A stretch of 20,347 nucleotides of DNA from an uncultured Gemmatimonadota bacterium (GTDB lineage: Bacteria; Gemmatimonadota; Gemmatimonadetes; Gemmatimonadales; Gemmatimonadaceae), in the NCBI GenBank assembly GCA_946480295.1, contig CAMLIT010000083.1, forward strand, positions 1 to 20,347, in the 5' to 3' direction. Made by a program: the position numbers and the translations under genes. This document shows, in pieces, positions 862 through 20,347 of the stretch (its first letter is position 1; every line of letters starts with the position of its first letter). A model generated the notes under the pieces. It had not been told where the DNA came from. It saw only the letters and a program-made list of their open reading frames with translations, and did no database searches.

Positions 862-2367
862 ATGCCTCTTTCCAACCGCATCGCGGCCTCGCTGACCGCG
901 TCCATGCGTGCTGCCGCGATCCTGCCAGCCCTGCTGCTCTTCGGCCACGTCGGCACCGCCTCCGCCCAGGCGACCACGAAGCCGAGCGCGCCGCCGGCCG
1001 CGCAGACCGCCGGCCAGCCTGCCGCGGCCAGCGCGTTCGTCACCATCAAGGGCACGGTCCTCGACAGCATCCACGGGACCGCGCTGTCGGGTGCCCTGGT
1101 CCGGGTGGACTCCAGCGGCCGGGAGCACCTCACCGATGCCAGCGGCGTCTATGAGATCGACAGCGTGCCCCCGGGTCCGCACCGGCTCATCGTCATCCAC
1201 CCGCTGCTGGACACGCTCGGCGTCTCGCTCGTGACGCCGGTGCTGACGTTCGCCCCCGGCGAGGTGCGCGAGATCGACCTCGCCGTGCCCACCTCCGAGC
1301 GGCTCGTCGGCCTGTTCTGCGCGCCGGCGTGGCGCGCCCGCGGACCGGCGGCGCTCATCGGCTTCGTCCGCGACGCCGACACCGAGGCGCCGGCGACGGG
1401 CGCGAAGGTCTCTCTGCTCTGGTACGAGTCGGATCCGCTCGGCCTCACGAAGACGCCGCGCGTGCGCGAGGCGACGCCGGGACCGGATGGCCATTACCGG
1501 ATCTGCGGCCTGCCGGCGACGATGAGCGGCAAGGTCCAGGTCTTCCGCGGCGGGATCAGCTCGGGCGAGGTTCCGGTCGAGGTGAAGGACGGCTTCCTCG
1601 CGCTGCGCAGCATGAGCGTGGCCTCCGCGGCGAACGTGCAGATCGCGAAGGGGAAGCCCGACTCCACGGGGAAGCCGGCCCCGAAGATCGTGCGCGGCAA
1701 GGCGCGGGTCTCCGGACGCATCCTCAACAAGGCCGGCCAGCCGGTGGTCGGCGCGCGCGTGAGCATCGAGGGGATCGCGGCGGCGGCGATCACGAAGTCG
1801 AACGGCGACTTCACCCTCGACAGCCTGCCGTCGGGGACGCAGACGCTCGAGGTGCGCAAGCTCGGCTACTCCGTCACCGAGCACCCGGTGGAGCTCTCCG
1901 CGGCGACCCCGCAGCGCGTCACCATCCACATGTCCGATTTCGTTCCGACCCTCGAGACGGTGCGCGTCGAGGCGCGCCGCGACAAGAATCTGTTCGACGT
2001 GGGATTCACGGAGCGGCAGAAGACGGGGATGGGCTACTACCTCACGCGCGACAAGCTGAACACGAACGCCCTTCGCCTCACGGACGCGCTGCGCACGATC
2101 CCCGGCATCAGCATCCAGCAGGACGCGAGCGGCCAGAGCTACGTGACGTCGTCGCGCGGCCCGGGCGGGTGCGTCAACATCTTCGTGGACGGCTCCCCGT
2201 GGCCGCAGATGAACCCGGGCGATCTCGACTCCTTCGTCCGGGCGGACGAGCTGGGAGCGATCGAGTCCTACAGCCCGTCGACGGTGCCGGCGCAGTTCAC
2301 GACCGCGGGGACGAGCAGCTGCCAGACGCTCGTCATCTGGACGGAGCGGCGCCTCGAGCGCAAGTGA
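862..2367 (+). CDS. Secreted carboxypeptidase-regulatory/TonB-plug protein without a beta barrel
   Basis: This 501-residue protein starts with a signal peptide (hydrophobic core about 18-30, likely cleavage after ASA near residue 35). Three beta-sandwich units of the CarboxypepD_reg type follow at about 60-140, 162-245 and 280-356. The first and third carry the G-x-V/I-x-D/N…G-x-P/A-L/V-x-GA-x-V core and a G-x-F/Y-x-L/I-DS-L/V-P turn. Residues about 370-495 look like a TonB-receptor plug: LTDALRTIPGISIQ, then a GGCVNIFVDG segment and an end in AGTSSCQTLVIWT. The roughly 500-700-residue outer-membrane barrel of a real receptor is absent and the gene simply stops. It probably acts in the periplasm or at the outer membrane; its partner and substrate are unknown. 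The start at 862 gives the longer signal peptide; the ATG at 904 is an alternative. Neither has a clear Shine-Dalgarno. Confidence 0.85.
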   Translation: MPLSNRIAASLTASMRAAAILPALLLFGHVGTASAQATTKPSAPPAAQTAGQPAAASAFVTIKGTVLDSIHGTALSGALVRVDSSGREHLTDASGVYEIDSVPPGPHRLIVIHPLLDTLGVSLVTPVLTFAPGEVREIDLAVPTSERLVGLFCAPAWRARGPAALIGFVRDADTEAPATGAKVSLLWYESDPLGLTKTPRVREATPGPDGHYRICGLPATMSGKVQVFRGGISSGEVPVEVKDGFLALRSMSVASAANVQIAKGKPDSTGKPAPKIVRGKARVSGRILNKAGQPVVGARVSIEGIAAAAITKSNGDFTLDSLPSGTQTLEVRKLGYSVTEHPVELSAATPQRVTIHMSDFVPTLETVRVEARRDKNLFDVGFTERQKTGMGYYLTRDKLNTNALRLTDALRTIPGISIQQDASGQSYVTSSRGPGGCVNIFVDGSPWPQMNPGDLDSFVRADELGAIESYSPSTVPAQFTTAGTSSCQTLVIWTERRLERK

Positions 2368-12916: not shown

Positions 12917-13070
12917 GGGGCGAGGGGCGAGCGGCGAGGGAGCTCGCTAGTGAGTCAGGAACCAGGAACTAGTCACGCCGTCACTAGTTCCTAGTTCCTA
13001 GTTCCTAGTTCCTACTTCCTAGTTCCTGGTTCCTGGTTCCTGGTTCCTGTTGTTGCTCGCCCCTCGCCCC
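12917..13070. repeat. Nested inverted repeat around a 7-bp microsatellite
   Basis: The outer arms are GGGGCGAGGGGCGAGC (12917-12932) and its perfect reverse complement at 13055-13070, 16 of 16. The inner arm CAGGAACCAGGAACTAG (12956-12972) has a perfect 17-bp complement at 13019-13035, and AGGAACTAGT (12964-12973) also pairs with 12983-12992 around a 9-nt loop. All lie between the M1 peptidase and ppk genes, with no coding content. The element can fold into alternative hairpins. Confidence 0.8.
12985..13047. repeat. Microsatellite of nine 7-bp units
   Basis: Units run TAGTTCC four times, TACTTCC once, TAGTTCC once, then TGGTTCC three times, without spacers. The block is visibly AT-richer than its surroundings. 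Such 7-bp arrays change length by slippage. This one ends about 50 bp before the ppk start. Confidence 0.9.
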
Positions 13071-13098
13071 TCGACCCTCCCCCCTGTAAGTTCGCCGC

Positions 13099-15912
13099 AT
13101 GCGGTACCCGGACCTCCGCTGCGACGTGTTCTCGATGGAGCAACTGCTCGAGCTCGTGGACGCGCCGCTGCCGGGGGGAGCCGGTGGACGGCGGCAGCCG
13201 CGGGCCGGGCGCGCGCTCTTCCGCGACCTGCACCTCGACACCGCGGACGACGCGCTGCGCCGCCGCGGCGTATCGCTCCGACTGCGGATCGGCGCCGACG
13301 ACCGGCGGCGGCTGATCCTCTCCATCGCCGATCCTCGCGAGCGCGACGCCGGCGGCGCAGGCGAGTGCCACGACTCGGCCGTGCGATCGGCGGACGCCAT
13401 GGCCGCGCTGCGCGAGCCGACGGCGGTGGGGCGGCGGCTGCGCGCGCTCGTGGATCCCGAGCGGCTCGAGCTGCGCGCCGACCTCGAGGTCGAGCGGTAT
13501 GTGCGCGTCGCCCGCCGCGACTGGCTGGGACGGGCCGCGCTCGTCGTGCTCTACGAGCAGGTGACGGTGCGCCGCGAGCGCGCGACGCGCAGCTTCCAGC
13601 AGATCAGGATCCGGCCGGTGCACGCGGCGACCGCGGAAGCGGAGGCGCTCGCGCAGGCGTACGAACGGGAGCACGGGCTGCGTCGGACGAGCGCGGACAC
13701 GCGCACGCGCGCCGACCTGCTCCTCAAGTGGATGGAGACCGAGGGGAGCTTCGCCGGCGTCTCGCGCGACTGGCCCGTCGCCGCGCTGGTCGCCCCGCGC
13801 GCCGCGGGCGAGTCGGCCGACGCGCCGCCCTTCCTGAACAGCGAGCTGAGTCTCGTCGAGTTCAACGCGCGCGTGCTCGCGATGGCGGAGGACGCGACGC
13901 TGCCGCTCGGCGAGCGGCTGCGCTTCCTCGCCATCGTCAGCGCCAACCTCGACGAGTTCTTCGGCGTCCGCGTCGCCGGGCTGCGCGACGCGACGCGCGA
14001 GCTGCTCGAGGAGCAGAGCGAGGAGGCGCTGTCGCGGCAGTCGCAGCTCGCGCTCGTCGCCAGCCGCGTGGCGACGCTGGTCGCGCGCCAGTACCGCTGC
14101 CATCGCGAGTGCATCGCCCTCCTCGCCGCGGCCGGCGTGCGGGTGCGCGCGTGGGCCGAGCTGGACGAACGCCAGCGCGAGCTGCTGCGGGCGCACTTCC
14201 GCGACGAGGTCTACCCCGCCCTGACGCCACTCGCCATGACCCTCGCGCCGGGACACCCCTTCCCCCGGCCGCCGCACCTGTCGCTGTCGCTGGCCGTCGT
14301 GCTGCTCGATCGGCATGGCGGCGCGCCGCGCCTCGCCTGCATCGAGCTGCCGCGCGAGCTGCCGCGGATCGTCCCCGTCTCCGGCGGCGGCGACGTCGTC
14401 CTCGTCGAGGAGCTGGTGCGGGCGAATCTCGACGTGCTCTACCCCGCGTCGCGCATCGAACAGGCGCACGTCTATCGCGCCACGCGCGGCGCCGACCTCG
14501 CCCTCGACGAGGACGCGGCGGACGACCTCCGCGACGCGGTGGACGAGGCGACGCGGCAGCGGTGGGGGAACGCGGTGGTGCGCGTCGAGGTGGAGCGCGC
14601 GATGCCCCTCGTCATCCGCGACCTGGTGCTCGCCGAGCTGCGCGCCGACGCACCGCCCGGCACCCTCCCGCTCTCGCACGCGGACCTGTACGAGATCGAC
14701 GGGCCGCTCGACCTGCGGCACGTCGCGGCGCTCCCCGTGCCGCGCGCGCTGGCGTGCCGCGAGCTCGCGAGCCCCGGGCGCGGCGACGGCGAGCCGCTGT
14801 GGGCGGCGATCCGCGCGCACGACCTGCTGCTCCACCATCCGTTCGATCCCTTCGCGGACACGGTGCAGCGCTTCTTCGCCGACGCAGCGCGGGATCCCGA
14901 CGTCGTGTCGATCAAGACGACCCTCTACCGCACCGGCGACGACTCGCCGGTGGTGGACGCGCTGCGCGACGCGGCGGCGCGCGGGAAGCAGGTCGCGGCC
15001 TTCGTCGAGCTGAAGGCGCGCTTCGACGAGGAGCGCAACGTCGCGTCGACGCGGGCGATCGAGGAGGCCGGCGGGCGGGTCGTCTACGGGCTCGTCGGCC
15101 TGAAGAACCACGCCAAGGTCACGCTCGTCGCGCGGCGCGAGGAGGGGCGGCTCCGGCGGTATGTGCACGTGGGCACCGGCAACTACAACGCGCTCACCGC
15201 CCGGCAGTACACGGACCTGAGCCTCTTCTCGGCGGACGAGGGGCTCGCCGAGGACGTGTCCCGCTTCTTCAACGCGCTGACGGGGACCTCGCGGCCGCCG
15301 GAGCGTCTCGAGCACGGGGCGCTCGTCGCGCCGACGCAGCTCCTGCCGGAGATCCTCGAGCGGATCGAGCGCGAGGCGGGGCACGCGCGCGCCGGCCGGC
15401 CGGCGGGGATCCGGCTCAAGTTGAACGGGCTCTCCCACCCCGAGGTGATCCGGGCGCTCTACGCCGCGTCACGGGCGGGGGTGCCCGTGGACCTCGTCGT
15501 GCGCGGCGTGTGCACGCTGCGCCCCGGCGTCCCCGGGCTCTCGGCGGGGATCCGCGTCGTGGGGATCGTCGGGCGGCTCCTCGAGCACTCGCGCATCTAC
15601 CACTTCGTCAACGGCGGCGAGGCCGAGTACCTGATCGGCTCCGCCGACCTGCGCCCGCGCAACCTGCGCCGGCGGATCGAGCTGCTCGCCCCGGTGCGCG
15701 ACGCGCGCGGCCGGGCGCTGCTCTACCGGCTCCTCGACCTCTACCTCGCCGACCCCACCGCGTGGGAGCTCCAGCCGGGCGGCGAGTACGTGCAGCGGCA
15801 CGGCGACGGGCCGTCCACGCAGGAGCGGCTGCTGCGCGAGGCGGCGCGGCCGCTCAGCGCCCCAGGCACCGGTCCACGATCTCCCGCTTCGCCGCTCGCG
15901 GATCGTCGATGA
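13099..15912 (+). CDS. ppk1: Polyphosphate kinase 1 with an amino-terminal CYTH-like extension
   Basis: The 937-residue protein is longer than the usual 690-730 for PPK1. Residues about 245-915 are a full PPK1: FLNSELSLVEFNARVL and FLAIVSANLDEFFGVRVAGL (amino domain), then HHPFDPFADTVQRF and SIKTTLYRT. Next come LKNHAK with His671, equivalent to the autophosphorylated His435 of E. coli, YVHVGTGNYN, and EHSRIYHF with the second active histidine (H830). It should make polyphosphate from ATP reversibly, in the cytoplasm. Residues 1-244 are extra. LHLDTADDALRRRGVSLRLRI and ALVVLYEQVTVRR…SFQQIRIR look like a CYTH/triphosphate-tunnel domain, but the acidic metal ligands (amino ExExK, carboxyl ExE) are not visible, so it may be inactive. 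The last 19 codons overlap the convergent CotH-like gene. No clear Shine-Dalgarno precedes the ATG. Confidence 0.9.
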   Translation: MRYPDLRCDVFSMEQLLELVDAPLPGGAGGRRQPRAGRALFRDLHLDTADDALRRRGVSLRLRIGADDRRRLILSIADPRERDAGGAGECHDSAVRSADAMAALREPTAVGRRLRALVDPERLELRADLEVERYVRVARRDWLGRAALVVLYEQVTVRRERATRSFQQIRIRPVHAATAEAEALAQAYEREHGLRRTSADTRTRADLLLKWMETEGSFAGVSRDWPVAALVAPRAAGESADAPPFLNSELSLVEFNARVLAMAEDATLPLGERLRFLAIVSANLDEFFGVRVAGLRDATRELLEEQSEEALSRQSQLALVASRVATLVARQYRCHRECIALLAAAGVRVRAWAELDERQRELLRAHFRDEVYPALTPLAMTLAPGHPFPRPPHLSLSLAVVLLDRHGGAPRLACIELPRELPRIVPVSGGGDVVLVEELVRANLDVLYPASRIEQAHVYRATRGADLALDEDAADDLRDAVDEATRQRWGNAVVRVEVERAMPLVIRDLVLAELRADAPPGTLPLSHADLYEIDGPLDLRHVAALPVPRALACRELASPGRGDGEPLWAAIRAHDLLLHHPFDPFADTVQRFFADAARDPDVVSIKTTLYRTGDDSPVVDALRDAAARGKQVAAFVELKARFDEERNVASTRAIEEAGGRVVYGLVGLKNHAKVTLVARREEGRLRRYVHVGTGNYNALTARQYTDLSLFSADEGLAEDVSRFFNALTGTSRPPERLEHGALVAPTQLLPEILERIEREAGHARAGRPAGIRLKLNGLSHPEVIRALYAASRAGVPVDLVVRGVCTLRPGVPGLSAGIRVVGIVGRLLEHSRIYHFVNGGEAEYLIGSADLRPRNLRRRIELLAPVRDARGRALLYRLLDLYLADPTAWELQPGGEYVQRHGDGPSTQERLLREAARPLSAPGTGPRSPASPLADRR

Positions 15913-16993
15913 CGCGGTAGAAGTCGTCGAAGTACTCGAGCGTGCCGCGCACGCGGTCCGGCGCGAGCAGCCTGCCGAGCGAGTCGGCGTACAGCGCGTA
16001 GATCGCCTGCTTCCTCTGGTCGAAGAGGGCGAACGCCTTCGGGAAGTACTCGTCAGGCACGCAGTAGCCCCGGTACAGCCGGTCGCGGACGGTGCGGATC
16101 GACAGCCGCGGGTCCACCGTCGCGTAGCGCGCGTCCACCGCGCCGCTGAAGTCGAAGTCGTGCGCGACGCCGTAGTAGCTCGTGACGCGCTGCAGGAGCT
16201 CCACGTTGTGGAGCGCGGCGACGGAGAAATCCGTGTTGCCGATCAGGTACTGGAACACGCCGAGCACGGCATCGTTCGTCGGATCGAGGTCGCCGGGCTG
16301 CGCCCCCTGCTGCTTGACGACCATCGCCGCGTTGCGGTCGGCCAGCGCGTCGACGTCCTCGAGCAGGAAGGCGTAGCGCGTGGCGAAGGGCTTCGTGCTC
16401 CCGCTGTCGACGTAGCTCACGCGCGCGAGGCGCACGCGGTGGCTCATCGGGGTGAGGAGGTTGTACACGCGGTAGAGCTGGAACTCCTCGAGGAGGTACT
16501 GCTCGTACTCGTCGTTGTCGCGGCAGTGGACGACGAGCTTGAGGTTCTCCTGCTTCGCGAACGCCGTGTGCTTCACGTCGTCGCGGTCGAAGTGGAGGCG
16601 GAGGGGCGGGAGGTCGCAGTTGTGGCGGCGCCAGATGCCGCGCGAGCGCACCTCGACGGGAACGTCCACCGCGGCGCCGTCCTCGCCGACGTACGTCAGC
16701 CGCGCCCAGTGGTAGGGCGGCGTGTCCGGCCGGTCGCGCCTGATCCGCCCGTAGTTGGCGGTGAGCGTGAAGTGGAGGATGCCGTCCTGCCTGAAGAGCG
16801 GCGCCGGCGTCAGCCCGGCGGTGTCGCCGCGCTGCGCCCGCTCGATCTGCTTCTGCGCCTTCTGTGCGCGCTTCGCCGCCCTGGCGGCCTTCGCGGAATC
16901 GGTCCCCTGCTGCTTCGCCTGGGCCGACGACGCCGCGGGCGCGGCCGCGGCGAGCAGGAGGGCGGCGAGCAGCAGGCGGGGCGTGCGGTGCAT
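15854..16993 (-). CDS. Secreted CotH-like protein (kinase-like fold)
   Basis: This 379-residue protein has a signal peptide (about 1-25, ending SSAQ) and an Ala/Lys/Gln-rich helical stretch (about 32-57) likely to form a coiled coil. The body resembles CotH-type kinases: VPVEVRSRGIWRR-x-N-C, then KHTAFAKQENLKLVVHCRD with LLEEFQLYRVYNLLT. Next come RYAFLLEDVDAL, LIGNTDFSVAALHN (a D…HN catalytic-loop-like pair) and VAHDFDFSG (a metal-binding DxD-like segment). CotH proteins in Bacillus and Mucorales phosphorylate or decorate surface proteins; here the target is unknown. GGAGG lies 4 nt before the ATG. It lies 33 bp after the DUF4956 gene in one operon and overlaps ppk1 tail-to-tail by 59 bp. 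The CotH assignment is by pattern and needs a profile search. Confidence 0.65.
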   Translation of the reverse strand: MHRTPRLLLAALLLAAAAPAASSAQAKQQGTDSAKAARAAKRAQKAQKQIERAQRGDTAGLTPAPLFRQDGILHFTLTANYGRIRRDRPDTPPYHWARLTYVGEDGAAVDVPVEVRSRGIWRRHNCDLPPLRLHFDRDDVKHTAFAKQENLKLVVHCRDNDEYEQYLLEEFQLYRVYNLLTPMSHRVRLARVSYVDSGSTKPFATRYAFLLEDVDALADRNAAMVVKQQGAQPGDLDPTNDAVLGVFQYLIGNTDFSVAALHNVELLQRVTSYYGVAHDFDFSGAVDARYATVDPRLSIRTVRDRLYRGYCVPDEYFPKAFALFDQRKQAIYALYADSLGRLLAPDRVRGTLEYFDDFYRVIDDPRAAKREIVDRCLGR

Positions 16994-17026: not shown

Positions 17027-18064
17027 TCAGGCGATCTCGACGCCGACGACGTCGGGACCGCCGTGCGAGCGCACCGTCTCGAGCAGCTCCTCGGGCGGCT
17101 TCGTCTTCTTGAGGAAGACGGTGTACTCGACGACGTGGGTGCCGTCGGGCTCGTGCACGACACCGCCGTAGCGCCAGCGCTTCAGCAGGTCGTCGAAGAG
17201 CGGCTCGACCGCGGTACGCGAGCCCTGGACATCGTAGGTGCGCACGCGCAGCAGCGCCTCGCGCCGCCCCTCCCGATCCGGCTCCTCGGGGTTGTTGCGG
17301 CGCATCCGCCGCCAGGCGCGATCGGCGATCGCGCCGAGCTGCTCCTGGCTCATCTTGTCGAACACCTCCTGGTCCAGCCGCGCCACGAACGTCCCCGTGC
17401 GGCTCAGCGCCTCCAGCGCGCGCTGCTTCCGCCGCTCGGCCATGAGCCCCTCGAGGTGCGCGGGCGTGCGCCCGAAGTCCGTGTACCAGAGCAGGAGCAC
17501 CACGGTGTTGAAGATGACCGAGATCACGAACGCCACCGGCACCTCCACGGCGGCGGCGAGCCCGATCGCCGTCGCGAGGAAGATGTACACGGCGTCCTTG
17601 CTGTCCTCGAGGGTGTTGCGGAAGCGGACGGCGGCGACGATCCCGGCGAGGCCGAAGGCGAGGGCGACGCTGTACTTCACGAGCACGACGACGCCGGCGA
17701 CGGCGATCGGAAGCACCATCAGCGTCTGCACGACCGACTGCTGGTAGCCGCGCTTCGCCCGGGTGAGGATGTACACCCACGCCACCGGCAGCGAGAGGAG
17801 GGCCGAGCTGATCATCGCCAGCGCGACCGTGATGGCAAGCGTCGCCTGGTCCATCGGCGGCCCCGCCGCCTTCTCCAGCGCCTTGCCCCCGGCCGGCCCC
17901 GCGCCGACGAGGGCGTCGAGCGCGGTCTGCGGGATGGCCTGGGCGTGCGGGAGGCTGGTCCAGAGGAGCCGCGCGAGCAGCGCCAGCGCCGCGTAGTAGA
18001 CCACGACGCGGACCACGACGTTCCTCGCGAGCGCGTTCGTCAGCCGGGCACTGCGCCAGAACAC
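17027..18064 (-). CDS. DUF4956 integral membrane protein
   Basis: This 345-residue protein starts with GTG behind GGAGG (6 nt spacing). It has a transmembrane segment near 18-38 and a core of three or four more segments (about 75-195). The core contains SLPVAWVYILTRAKRGYQQSVVQT, ALAFGLAGIVAAVRFRNTLEDSKDAVYIFLATAIGLAAAV and FNTVVLLLWYTDFGR. These are the hallmarks of DUF4956. The rest (about 205-345) is a soluble cytoplasmic domain ending in an ACT-like beta/alpha pattern (VVEYTVFLKK…VRSHGGPDVVGVEIA). In many bacteria this family is encoded beside VTC-type polyphosphate polymerases and CotH proteins. Here CotH follows at 33 bp, and a polyphosphate kinase lies just beyond it. Its role is not established; transport or channelling of polyphosphate or its substrate is a guess. 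Confidence 0.88.
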   Translation of the reverse strand: MFWRSARLTNALARNVVVRVVVYYAALALLARLLWTSLPHAQAIPQTALDALVGAGPAGGKALEKAAGPPMDQATLAITVALAMISSALLSLPVAWVYILTRAKRGYQQSVVQTLMVLPIAVAGVVVLVKYSVALAFGLAGIVAAVRFRNTLEDSKDAVYIFLATAIGLAAAVEVPVAFVISVIFNTVVLLLWYTDFGRTPAHLEGLMAERRKQRALEALSRTGTFVARLDQEVFDKMSQEQLGAIADRAWRRMRRNNPEEPDREGRREALLRVRTYDVQGSRTAVEPLFDDLLKRWRYGGVVHEPDGTHVVEYTVFLKKTKPPEELLETVRSHGGPDVVGVEIA

Positions 18065-18158: not shown

Positions 18159-18563
18159 TCAGTGGATCGAGTACAGGTACGCCGCGATGTCCCGCGCCTG
18201 CCCCTCCGGCACGCCGAGATTCGGCATCGCGGTGCCCGGCTCGATCGCCTGCGGGACCTCGATCCACCGGATGAGGAAGTCCGGCGTGTTCGGCACCTCC
18301 CCGGCGATGTACGTCCGCCTGCTCCAGAAGTAGAGGGGCGGCCCCACCGTGCCCTTCGCCGTCGACACGCCGGGGATGGTGTGGCACGACCCGCAGCCGA
18401 AGGTCTCGATCGCGACCTTGCCGCGCGCCGCGTCCCCGCCCGGGACGGTGTACTGCGGCTCGCGCCCCGCCGCCTCGTTGCATGCCGCCGGCACGACCAT
18501 CGCCAGCGCCGCCAGCATCGGCAGCACGCACTCGCGCAGCCGCCCTCTCACGCTTCCCCGCAT
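18159..18563 (-). CDS. Lipoprotein cytochrome c (class I), oxidase-associated
   Basis: This 134-residue protein has a lipoprotein signal with lipobox PAAC (Cys28). Its single haem site is CGSCH at 57-61, and the second axial ligand is probably Met113 in GTAMPNLGV. Around it are GPPLYFWSRRTYIAGEVPNTPDFLIRWI and a carboxyl helix (DIAAYLYSIH), as in small class I cytochromes c. Lipid-anchored to the outer face of the membrane, it would pass electrons to the terminal oxidase encoded just upstream. Good ribosome site: GGGAGG 4 nt before the ATG. It is the last gene of the operon, 22 bp after the preceding one, with a strong terminator directly behind. In other oxidases a cytochrome c domain is fused to subunit II; no subunit II is within this window. 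Confidence 0.9.
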   Translation of the reverse strand: MRGSVRGRLRECVLPMLAALAMVVPAACNEAAGREPQYTVPGGDAARGKVAIETFGCGSCHTIPGVSTAKGTVGPPLYFWSRRTYIAGEVPNTPDFLIRWIEVPQAIEPGTAMPNLGVPEGQARDIAAYLYSIH

Positions 18564-18585
18564 GGAGCCTCCCTGGTGCCCGCGA

Positions 18586-19038
18586 TCAACTGAGTATGCA
18601 TACCGGCAGAGTCACGATCGGCAGCGCGTTCATCAGCACCCCGTAGATGAAGATGCCGCTCACGAGGAGCCCGGCGACCGCCATGAAGCGCGCCCGCCCC
18701 TCGCCCACCTCGGCGACCTCGCGATGCTCGCCCTCGTGGCCGTGGCGGGTGACCGACCACGAGTGCAGGGCCGTGAACAGGGCGGCGACGGCGACGACGA
18801 GGCACAGCACGCTCACGGCGATCGCGACCGCGCGCACCCCGCCGAAGCTCGACGAGGCCACCGGCGTATCGTTCGGATAGCAGAAGTGCGCGACGAGCGC
18901 GTAGTCCACGATGAGCTGGATCGCCCAGACGACCGGCCCGCCGAAGATGCCGAACCAGAGCTTCCAGAGGGGAACGAGGCCACGTCGGGGCGCGGCGTGT
19001 CCCGGCATCCCCGGGTGCTCGAAGATCCTGGCGGTCAT
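18586..19038 (-). CDS. Small membrane protein of the cytochrome oxidase operon
   Basis: The ATG at 19038 overlaps the TGA of the subunit III gene as ATGA, showing coupled translation. The 150-residue product has hydrophobic segments at about 30-50 (LWFGIFGGPVVWAIQLIVDYALVAHF), 70-93 (VAIAVSVLCLVVAVAALFTAL) and 118-148 (MAVAGLLVSGIFIYGVLMNALPIVTLPVCI), separated by a His/Glu-rich loop (HGHEGEHREVAEVGE). The length and position fit an accessory or assembly protein in place of the small subunit IV, but I do not recognise the family. The His/Glu loop could bind metal, which would suit an assembly role; that is a guess. Confidence 0.75.
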   Translation of the reverse strand: MTARIFEHPGMPGHAAPRRGLVPLWKLWFGIFGGPVVWAIQLIVDYALVAHFCYPNDTPVASSSFGGVRAVAIAVSVLCLVVAVAALFTALHSWSVTRHGHEGEHREVAEVGEGRARFMAVAGLLVSGIFIYGVLMNALPIVTLPVCILS

Positions 19039-19637
19039 GAGAACCGGGGGGTGATGTAGAGGGAGAAGAAGACGACCAGCCACACCGCGTCGACGAAGTG
19101 CCAGTACATCGCGGCGTTCGTCACCGCGAGGTGTCGGTCGGCGTCGAACCAGCCACGCCACGCCCAGACCTGCACGACCACGTTGATGATCAGCCCGACC
19201 AGCACGTGCGCGCCGTGGAAGCCGGTGATCGTGAAGAACAGGCCGCCATAGGCGTTGGACTGCGGCGAGAACGCCTTGTGGCTGTACTCGATCCCCTGGA
19301 TCACGAGGAAGACGACGCCGAGGATCAGCGTGAGGAGCATGCCGAGGCGGAGGCGAAGCTGGCTGCCGACGCGGATCCCCCGCTCCGCCCACCACATCGT
19401 CCCGCTGCTGACGATCAGGATGACCGTGTTGGGGAGCGACAGCTTCAGGTCGGGCGGGCCGCCGGGCGGGTAGGGCCCGGTGGTCATCGACCCGACGTAG
19501 TAGTACGCGAACAGGAAGTACGCGAAGAGCATCGCCTCGGTGGTGATGATGAGCAGCATCACCACCCAGCCGGGATTGCTCCGCTGCGCCGGGTTGATCG
19601 GAAGGTCGTAGGGGGTGGGGTTCGCCGCGGTCGCCAT
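19035..19637 (-). CDS. ctaE: Cytochrome c oxidase subunit III, short form
   Basis: This 200-residue integral membrane protein has about five transmembrane segments, starting with WVVMLLIITTEAMLFAYFLFAYYY, which holds the subunit III glutamate. Further motifs are SLPNTVILIVSSGTMWWAE, LGVVFLVIQGIEY, FFTITGFHGAHVLVGL with the typical G-F-H-x-x-H-V, and AAMYWHFVDAVWLVVFFSLYI. This matches the haem-copper oxidase subunit III family, in the form lacking the first two helices of the seven-helix type. Subunit III stabilises the catalytic subunit and the proton uptake path. It follows the subunit I gene by only 3 bp and overlaps the next gene by 4 bp, so all four genes form one operon. Confidence 0.95.
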   Translation of the reverse strand: MATAANPTPYDLPINPAQRSNPGWVVMLLIITTEAMLFAYFLFAYYYVGSMTTGPYPPGGPPDLKLSLPNTVILIVSSGTMWWAERGIRVGSQLRLRLGMLLTLILGVVFLVIQGIEYSHKAFSPQSNAYGGLFFTITGFHGAHVLVGLIINVVVQVWAWRGWFDADRHLAVTNAAMYWHFVDAVWLVVFFSLYITPRFS

Positions 19638-19640
19638 GGG

Positions 19641-20347
19641 TCAGGCCCTCACGGAAGGTCCAGGCTCGTGACTGGGCATGAACCAGCCCACGATGGTCAC
19701 GAAGAGCGCGATCGCCCCGACGATGCCGAGCCAGAGCAGTCCCGTCAGCAGCCCGTAGCAGAGCACGAGCACCGACAGCGCCAGGAAGAAGGGCCAGACG
19801 GTGTCCTCCGGCATGCGCAGGACCTCGTTCGGCTCGGCGTCCAGCGGCGTGGTGCCGAAGGTGTCGCGCCCGTGGTCGAGCATCGGGCCGTCGAGCACGG
19901 TGCGCCCGGTGCCCTCCGGCATCCGGTCCTCCCATAGGGGATGGCGGCTGCCGACGATCGGGATGCGGGCGAAGTTGTACGGCGGCGGCGGCGAGGGCAT
20001 GGCCCACTCCAGCGTCGGCGCGTCCCACGGGTTGGGGCCGGCCTCCTCGCCGAACGCGAGGCTCCAGAAGAAGTTGACGATGAAGACGACGATGCCTAAC
20101 GCGAAGACGAAGGCGCCGATCGTCACCCACATGTTCTGCCACCCCCAGCCGAGCCCCGACGCGTACGTGTAGATGCGCCGCGGCATCCCGAGCAGCCCCA
20201 GCGTGTGCATGGGAAAGAAGCCGACGCCGAAGCCGAGGAACATCAGCCAGAAGTTCAGCTTCCCCAATCCCTCGTTCAGCAGGCGGCCCGTCATCTTCGG
20301 CAGCCAGTAGTAGAAGCCGGCCATCACGGCGAAGACGTTGATGCCGA
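19641..20347 (-). CDS. ctaD: Cytochrome c oxidase subunit I, carboxyl part (5' end beyond window)
   Basis: The frame is open to the window edge, leaving 234 residues. GFYYWLPKMTGR, FWLMFLGFGVGFFPMHTLGLLGMPRRIYTY and W-Q-N-M-W-V-T-I-GAFVFALGIVVFIVNF match the last helices of haem-copper oxidase subunit I. The haem and copper ligands are outside the window, so their presence cannot be checked. After the twelfth helix come a polar Pro-rich loop (TLEWAMPSPPPPYNFARIP, typical) and an extra tail. This tail has about two more hydrophobic segments (VWPFFLALSVLVLCYGLLTGLLWLGIVGAIALFVTIVGWFM), as known in the extended subunit I of caa3-type oxidases. It is translated just before subunit III (3-bp gap). 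Confidence 0.94.
   Translation of the reverse strand, partial: GINVFAVMAGFYYWLPKMTGRLLNEGLGKLNFWLMFLGFGVGFFPMHTLGLLGMPRRIYTYASGLGWGWQNMWVTIGAFVFALGIVVFIVNFFWSLAFGEEAGPNPWDAPTLEWAMPSPPPPYNFARIPIVGSRHPLWEDRMPEGTGRTVLDGPMLDHGRDTFGTTPLDAEPNEVLRMPEDTVWPFFLALSVLVLCYGLLTGLLWLGIVGAIALFVTIVGWFMPSHEPGPSVRA

Follow-up and report, generated by a model that had tools for sequence, protein, structure and literature searches.

The window, by which we mean the whole stretch of 20,347 nucleotides analysed here, encodes a polyphosphate kinase 1 (PPK1) that is fused behind a CYTH/triphosphate-tunnel (TTM) domain predicted to be non-catalytic, a combination that places two unrelated polyphosphate-related folds in one chain and belongs to a single PPK1 clade. 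The fusion and its gene neighbourhood suggest a dedicated route for polyphosphate (polyP) synthesis and hand-over. No description of a CYTH-PPK1 fusion was found in the literature searched, the coverage of which excluded preprints and most subscription papers.

A PPK1 with an N-terminal extension

The fusion gene (13099..15912, + strand) is one open reading frame of 937 aa. Pfam analysis placed the four PPK1 domains (N, middle, C1, and C2) in the expected order at aa 245-903 (13831..15807, +), in line with the invariant columns and with an alignment to the solved PPK1 structure 1xdo, while aa 216-244 (13744..13830, +) form a linker that, by comparison with relatives, marks the site of an additional domain in long-form members. 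The protein scored above the curated cut-offs of both TIGR03705 (664.9 bits, cut-off 465.85) and NF003921 (724.1 bits, cut-off 701). H671 and H830 pair with conserved histidines in the 1xdo alignment, are invariant in 22 of 22 sequences of a first alignment and have counterparts in all 37 sequences of a second. These two residues are the catalytic histidines of PPK1, and the enzyme of the window, judging by its sequence, keeps its catalytic residues.

The N-terminal extension is present in all 21 homologues from the first search, which range from 901 to 1073 aa and carry both parts in one frame. The view that the fusion is an artefact of a mis-set start or a one-off assembly join retains practically no weight, as it is contradicted by these 21 homologues, by 58 rows of a second search, and by strong matches in 78 genomes, with 74 of the 82 strong rows lying in open frames of at least 900 aa. 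The first-pass annotation of this DNA had read the gene as an extension and a full-length PPK1 in one chain, and the single frame with its four PPK1 domains bears this out. It had also allowed for a family-wide start near residue 240 that would leave the extension untranslated; the extension is instead translated throughout the family. A search for the same fusion among relatives had been proposed there too, and strong matches were obtained in 78 genomes of one phylum.

The N-terminal domain is a predicted tunnel that has lost metal ligands

Structure prediction for aa 1-215 (13099..13743, +) gave a tunnel fold (pLDDT 93.7, pTM 0.87), and the model matched CYTH structures (Foldseek and VIA). 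Against PF01928 (CYTH) the window protein alone scored 13.5 bits, below the cut-off of 23.2, whereas its relative P0014 reached 26.7 bits; at permissive limits the profile was matched by 21 of 21 relatives in alignment A1 and by 37 of 37 in alignment A4. The Pfam search returned no VTC (PF09359) row for the tunnel domain. Much of the domain sequence is variable, with identity to the window dropping to 31% among relatives. A chance resemblance to CYTH is ruled out by the predicted fold, the structure matches, and the Pfam matches of relatives, and aa 1-215 are accordingly modelled as a CYTH/TTM tunnel.

Escherichia coli ygiF served as the reference for residue numbering. Metal site 1 of ygiF is completed by E160, a residue reported to be invariant among the TTMs characterised, whereas metal site 2 is made up of E4, E6, and E162, and R56 is catalytic (PMC4641920). 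For the column counts, 77 sequences were aligned and one was removed because its N-terminus was too short, which left 76 family members with the window among them; totals are smaller where columns are gapped. The counterparts of E158/E160/E162 in the window are Q168-x-R170-x-R172 (13600..13614, +). The E160 column, which corresponds to the site-1 metal glutamate shared with Vtc4, is acidic in none of the 76 sequences, and the E162 column is acidic in none and basic in 57. The E6 and E4 columns are acidic in 14/71 and 27/71, respectively; the E-x-E-x-K motif is absent from the window, which has Y3-x-D5-x-R7 instead, and the K8 column is basic in 70/72. R61-x-R63 (13279..13287, +), the counterparts of R56 and R58, are arginines in 75 and 76 of the 76 sequences. 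Taken together, sequence and predicted fold describe a tunnel that has lost metal ligands of both sites and retains the phosphate-contacting arginines.

The closest non-fused relative found is a stand-alone CYTH protein of 208 aa (L017:1480-2106, - strand, genome G171). It falls outside the fused family and has both E-x-E-x-K and E-x-E-x-E intact, which supports the column mapping as well as a loss of the ligands inside the fused lineage. A CYTH- or tunnel-like fold in front of PPK1 and the replacement of its acidic ligands (QIR for E-x-E) had both been put forward in the first-pass annotation, and both hold. That annotation would have given way to a predicted fold other than a barrel, and the fold obtained is a tunnel; it would equally have given way had no significant CYTH or VTC match been found, and relatives do match CYTH significantly, though the window alone does not. 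None of the three refuting outcomes named there occurred.

Most fused relatives carry a third domain

A third domain, absent from the window, is present in 59 of the 77 family members. The predicted structure of one long-form member shows a Nudix fold in this domain, with the regulators AraR and NrtR among its structural matches. The domain had no Pfam match, and the strict Nudix box, in its generally known pattern, was found in 0 of the 59 long forms. Most fused relatives are therefore predicted to carry a Nudix fold devoid of the Nudix box, and the long form joins three domains in one chain.

Distribution and descent of the fused enzymes

Those homologues that carry an organism name belong to Gemmatimonadales or Gemmatimonadaceae, and on this ground the window is assigned to the Gemmatimonadota. 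The fused enzyme belongs to one bacterial group, probably this phylum. Gemmatimonas aurantiaca, a member of this phylum, is said to be a cultured polyphosphate accumulator. When 395 genomes of one phylum were searched with the CYTH profile, 82 matched at 1e-5, and 78 were left after four (G444, G448, G537, and G664; E >1e-6, frames of 523-618 aa) had been dropped. This phylum is taken to be the Gemmatimonadota because P0071 (Gemmatimonadales) and locus L028 of this set share 76% identity across 709 aa. PPK1 is present in 314 of the 395 genomes. At least two PPK1 matches were counted in 49 of the 78 fused genomes (G534 and G659, both among the 49, have two CYTH matches), so that the fused enzyme is frequently accompanied by a second PPK1.

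In a quick tree of 70 PPK1 domains, calculated without bootstrap, the 42 fused rows form one clade (SH-aLRT 99), separate from 22 ordinary PPK1s, eight of which come from fusion-carrying genomes, and from six outside rows. The fused PPK1s are a specialised PPK1 lineage that commonly occurs beside another PPK1. At L096 and L097, an ordinary PPK1 and a fused CYTH-PPK1 are located on one contig with a few kb between them.

Searches outside the main set were also evaluated. Relatives of G004 (385 genomes) gave three matches at 1e-10, with fused-length frames in G385 and G114 and the stand-alone protein in G171. CYTH match rows numbered 5 in Eisenbacteria (47 genomes), 6 in Planctomycetes (199), and 10 in Pseudomonadota (200), the best E being 9.8e-11, and no PPK1 was seen beside CYTH in the flanks of about 1.5 kb of 15 of these 21 rows, at first-look limits that distant cases may escape. 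A search with the N-terminal alignment yielded 86 matches; the nine inspected by eye were truncated or frame-shifted pieces of fused genes (P0160 being chimaeric), and no stand-alone member of the same subfamily was among these nine.

The gene cluster at fused loci

Two genes on the opposite strand converge on the fusion gene in the window. The nearer one (15854..16993, -) overlaps it tail to tail by 59 bp and encodes a 379-aa protein with a signal-peptide-like start, as judged by eye, whose homologues adjoin CYTH-PPK1 or DUF4956 in relatives. It gave no Pfam, NCBIfam, or PDB match, and a CotH label, based on likeness by eye, was discarded for want of support from these three sources. The second gene (17027..18064, -) encodes a hydrophobic, putative membrane protein of 345 aa that matches DUF4956 (PF16316, E 8e-13, over the cut-off). 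In its convergent arrangement the window differs from most relatives, where DUF4956 (16 of 17 fused loci) and the envelope-type gene (18 of 19) share the strand of the fusion gene, and short gaps or overlaps separate the cluster genes, for example in L080 and L094.

Twenty fused loci were taken from the 82 strong rows and picked for long contigs, and 20 ordinary PPK1 loci were picked likewise among the PPK1 rows listed, six of them from fusion-carrying genomes (G420, G593, G639, G671, G674, and G700). With tblastn queries taken from the window and from fused loci, which favour fused loci for distant matches, DUF4956 was detected at 17 of the 20 fused loci, an Omp85-bearing protein at 14, a homologue of the 379-aa protein at five, either of these two envelope-type proteins at 19 (at L095, the exception, the gene stands at a contig end), and a metallophosphoesterase at seven, compared with 0 of the 20 ordinary loci in each case. 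The identical queries still match loci in fusion-free genomes. The Omp85-bearing proteins (L085:8696-11260, - strand, and relatives) are about 870 aa long and combine an N-terminal domain with the conserved GDWDRH...RDRDQAF and a C-terminal Omp85-family barrel; the Omp85 domain exceeded the Pfam cut-off in two of three members tested, and no relationship to the 379-aa protein was detectable. In 57 of the 78 fused genomes, no more than 7 kb separate DUF4956 from the CYTH match (median 3460 bp), while in the other 21 it is farther away on the same contig (2), on another contig (12), or not found (7). Fused PPK1 loci are tied to DUF4956 and an envelope-type protein, and the window has both.

Other features of the window were recorded alongside. 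Just upstream of the fusion gene, the 7-bp unit CTAGTTC is repeated in 9.3 copies (12984-13048), flanked by shorter 7-bp arrays (12917-12940 and 13056-13085), and a near-palindrome was noted by eye at about 12964-12992. Upstream of DUF4956, frames at 18159-20345 (-) resemble, by eye, cytochrome c and cytochrome oxidase subunits. A 501-aa protein at 862-2367 (+) has carboxypeptidase-regulatory domains and a TonB plug, with no barrel listed.

DUF4956 beyond the fusion

DUF4956 was found in 71 of the 78 fused genomes versus 42 of 78 fusion-free ones, the latter being the first 78 of 236 genomes that have PPK1 but no fusion. VTC occurs in three of these 156 genomes, and all three genes adjoin DUF4956 (G536:C18, G478:C2, and G392:C71); VTC and DUF4956 matches also fall in the same three of 14 control genomes. 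The expected pairing of DUF4956 with VTC in fusion-free genomes failed, as VTC was present in 2/78 only. DUF4956 is found near CYTH-PPK1 as well as VTC and hence accompanies tunnel-fold domains in two polymerase settings. Gram-positive pel clusters are reported to hold a contiguous set of CotH, a poly-phosphate polymerase, and DUF4956 (PMC7112168).

Twenty DUF4956 loci, covering 20 of the 42 fusion-free genomes with DUF4956, were inspected further. An envelope-type homologue is present in 17 (379-aa type in 13, Omp85 type in four), and neither CYTH nor PPK1 was found in the 12 kb around these 20 loci. The remaining three comprise a VTC locus (L130) and two loci with a predicted protein kinase gene (PF00069; L136 and L141). 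A further family, N2, is located near DUF4956 in eight of the 20, and the member tested (L134:7454-9073, -) matches PF01663, type I phosphodiesterase.

Possible roles of the tunnel domain

The CYTH domain may act as a binding or regulatory module. We infer that, most likely, the tunnel holds or guides polyP and couples PPK1 to DUF4956; chains may then cross the membrane. Spelled out, and given about an even chance by us, a non-phosphatase tunnel would hold polyP or phosphate by binding the nascent chain or its end, would in this way keep PPK1 processive, and would couple the enzyme to the DUF4956 protein encoded next door, with participation of the secreted or outer-membrane protein of the same cluster. 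Such a module would resemble the tunnel subunits of yeast VTC, except that polymerisation would fall to PPK1 instead of the tunnel domain. Yeast VTC is described as coupling synthesis to translocation, with a positive belt leading from the tunnel exit (PMC9911596), and in Vtc4 the place of the acidic patch of TTM3 is reported to be taken by basic residues that lead polyP away (PMC4641920). Several observations point against the coupling model: DUF4956 and an envelope-type gene occur without CYTH-PPK1 at the 17 fusion-free loci mentioned above, DUF4956 itself is present in 42 of 78 fusion-free genomes, it is missing from the 7 kb around the CYTH match in 21 of the 78 fused genomes, the two neighbouring genes of the window are on the strand opposite to the fusion gene, ygiF K69, which contacts the substrate, has a basic counterpart in no more than 11/76 sequences, and the E83 column is acidic in 65/75. 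Besides, the binding of polyP granules by CYTH-CHAD proteins is attributed to CHAD alone (PMC10892726), and a CYTH domain therefore need not bind polyP.

It is credible, albeit unlikely, that the dead tunnel is an allosteric sensor, which would bind a small phosphate ligand (tripolyphosphate or a nucleoside tri- or tetraphosphate) and switch PPK1, the Nudix-fold domain of the long forms being a second nucleotide sensor. Nudix folds can act as sensors. Both accessory folds lack catalytic motifs and keep the binding fold, and the AraR and NrtR matches fit this proposal as well, but it leaves the DUF4956 and envelope-type neighbourhood unexplained. Rather unlikely, in our estimation, is a full bacterial counterpart of VTC, in which the dead tunnel would hand the polyP made by PPK1 to a DUF4956 channel and from there to the secreted protein or Omp85 barrel, so that polyP would become periplasmic or reach the cell surface.

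An improbable alternative regards the domain as a structural scaffold for oligomerisation or docking, its tunnel being a relic. The lost metal ligands and the variable sequence would agree with this, yet two arginines stay nearly invariant in 76 sequences that diverge so widely from the window. We are still more doubtful of a tunnel that remains a phosphohydrolase and trims the PPK1 product, the metal being bound from another strand through acidic residues at positions 128 and 132, next to E130. An E or D occupies position 132 in 75/76 sequences, and position 128 is acidic in most (a count in which the fragmentary long forms P0067 and P0069 are listed in both groups), the column of D153 (ygiF D143) is acidic in 76/76, and that of position 168 (ygiF E158; Q168 in the window itself) is glutamate in 60/76. 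Against this, neither the site-1 glutamate, reported as invariant among the TTMs characterised (PMC4641920), nor a site-2 glutamate (ygiF E162) is kept as an acidic residue in any of the 76.

Comparison with known systems

The fusion shares all four domains, the catalytic histidines, and the TIGR03705 match with known PPK1s (1xdo and 2o8r), but differs from them in its N-terminal pseudo-CYTH domain and in forming a clade apart from the ordinary PPK1s drawn from these genomes. The CYTH-CHAD inorganic triphosphatase ygiF (5a60) has E4, E6, E160, and E162, of which E160 and E162 are missing from the window family, and its partner domain is CHAD instead of PPK1. Long-form relatives appear to share the fold of Nudix hydrolases, not their box. 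The cluster and the Gram-positive pel accessory genes both combine DUF4956 with a polyP polymerase and one more protein; the text consulted on pel does not call that polymerase a PPK1 (PMC7112168), and the 379-aa protein of the window is like CotH by eye only. The cluster ties the fused PPK1 to DUF4956, whose other polymerase neighbour in this analysis is VTC, and DUF4956 gains a functional lead. Compared with yeast VTC, with its polymerase Vtc4 and tunnel subunits Vtc2/Vtc3, the window lacks a VTC profile row and the metal glutamate and employs PPK1 as the polymerase; it nonetheless offers a concrete candidate for a bacterial coupling of polyphosphate synthesis to the membrane of the kind described for yeast VTC (PMC9911596).
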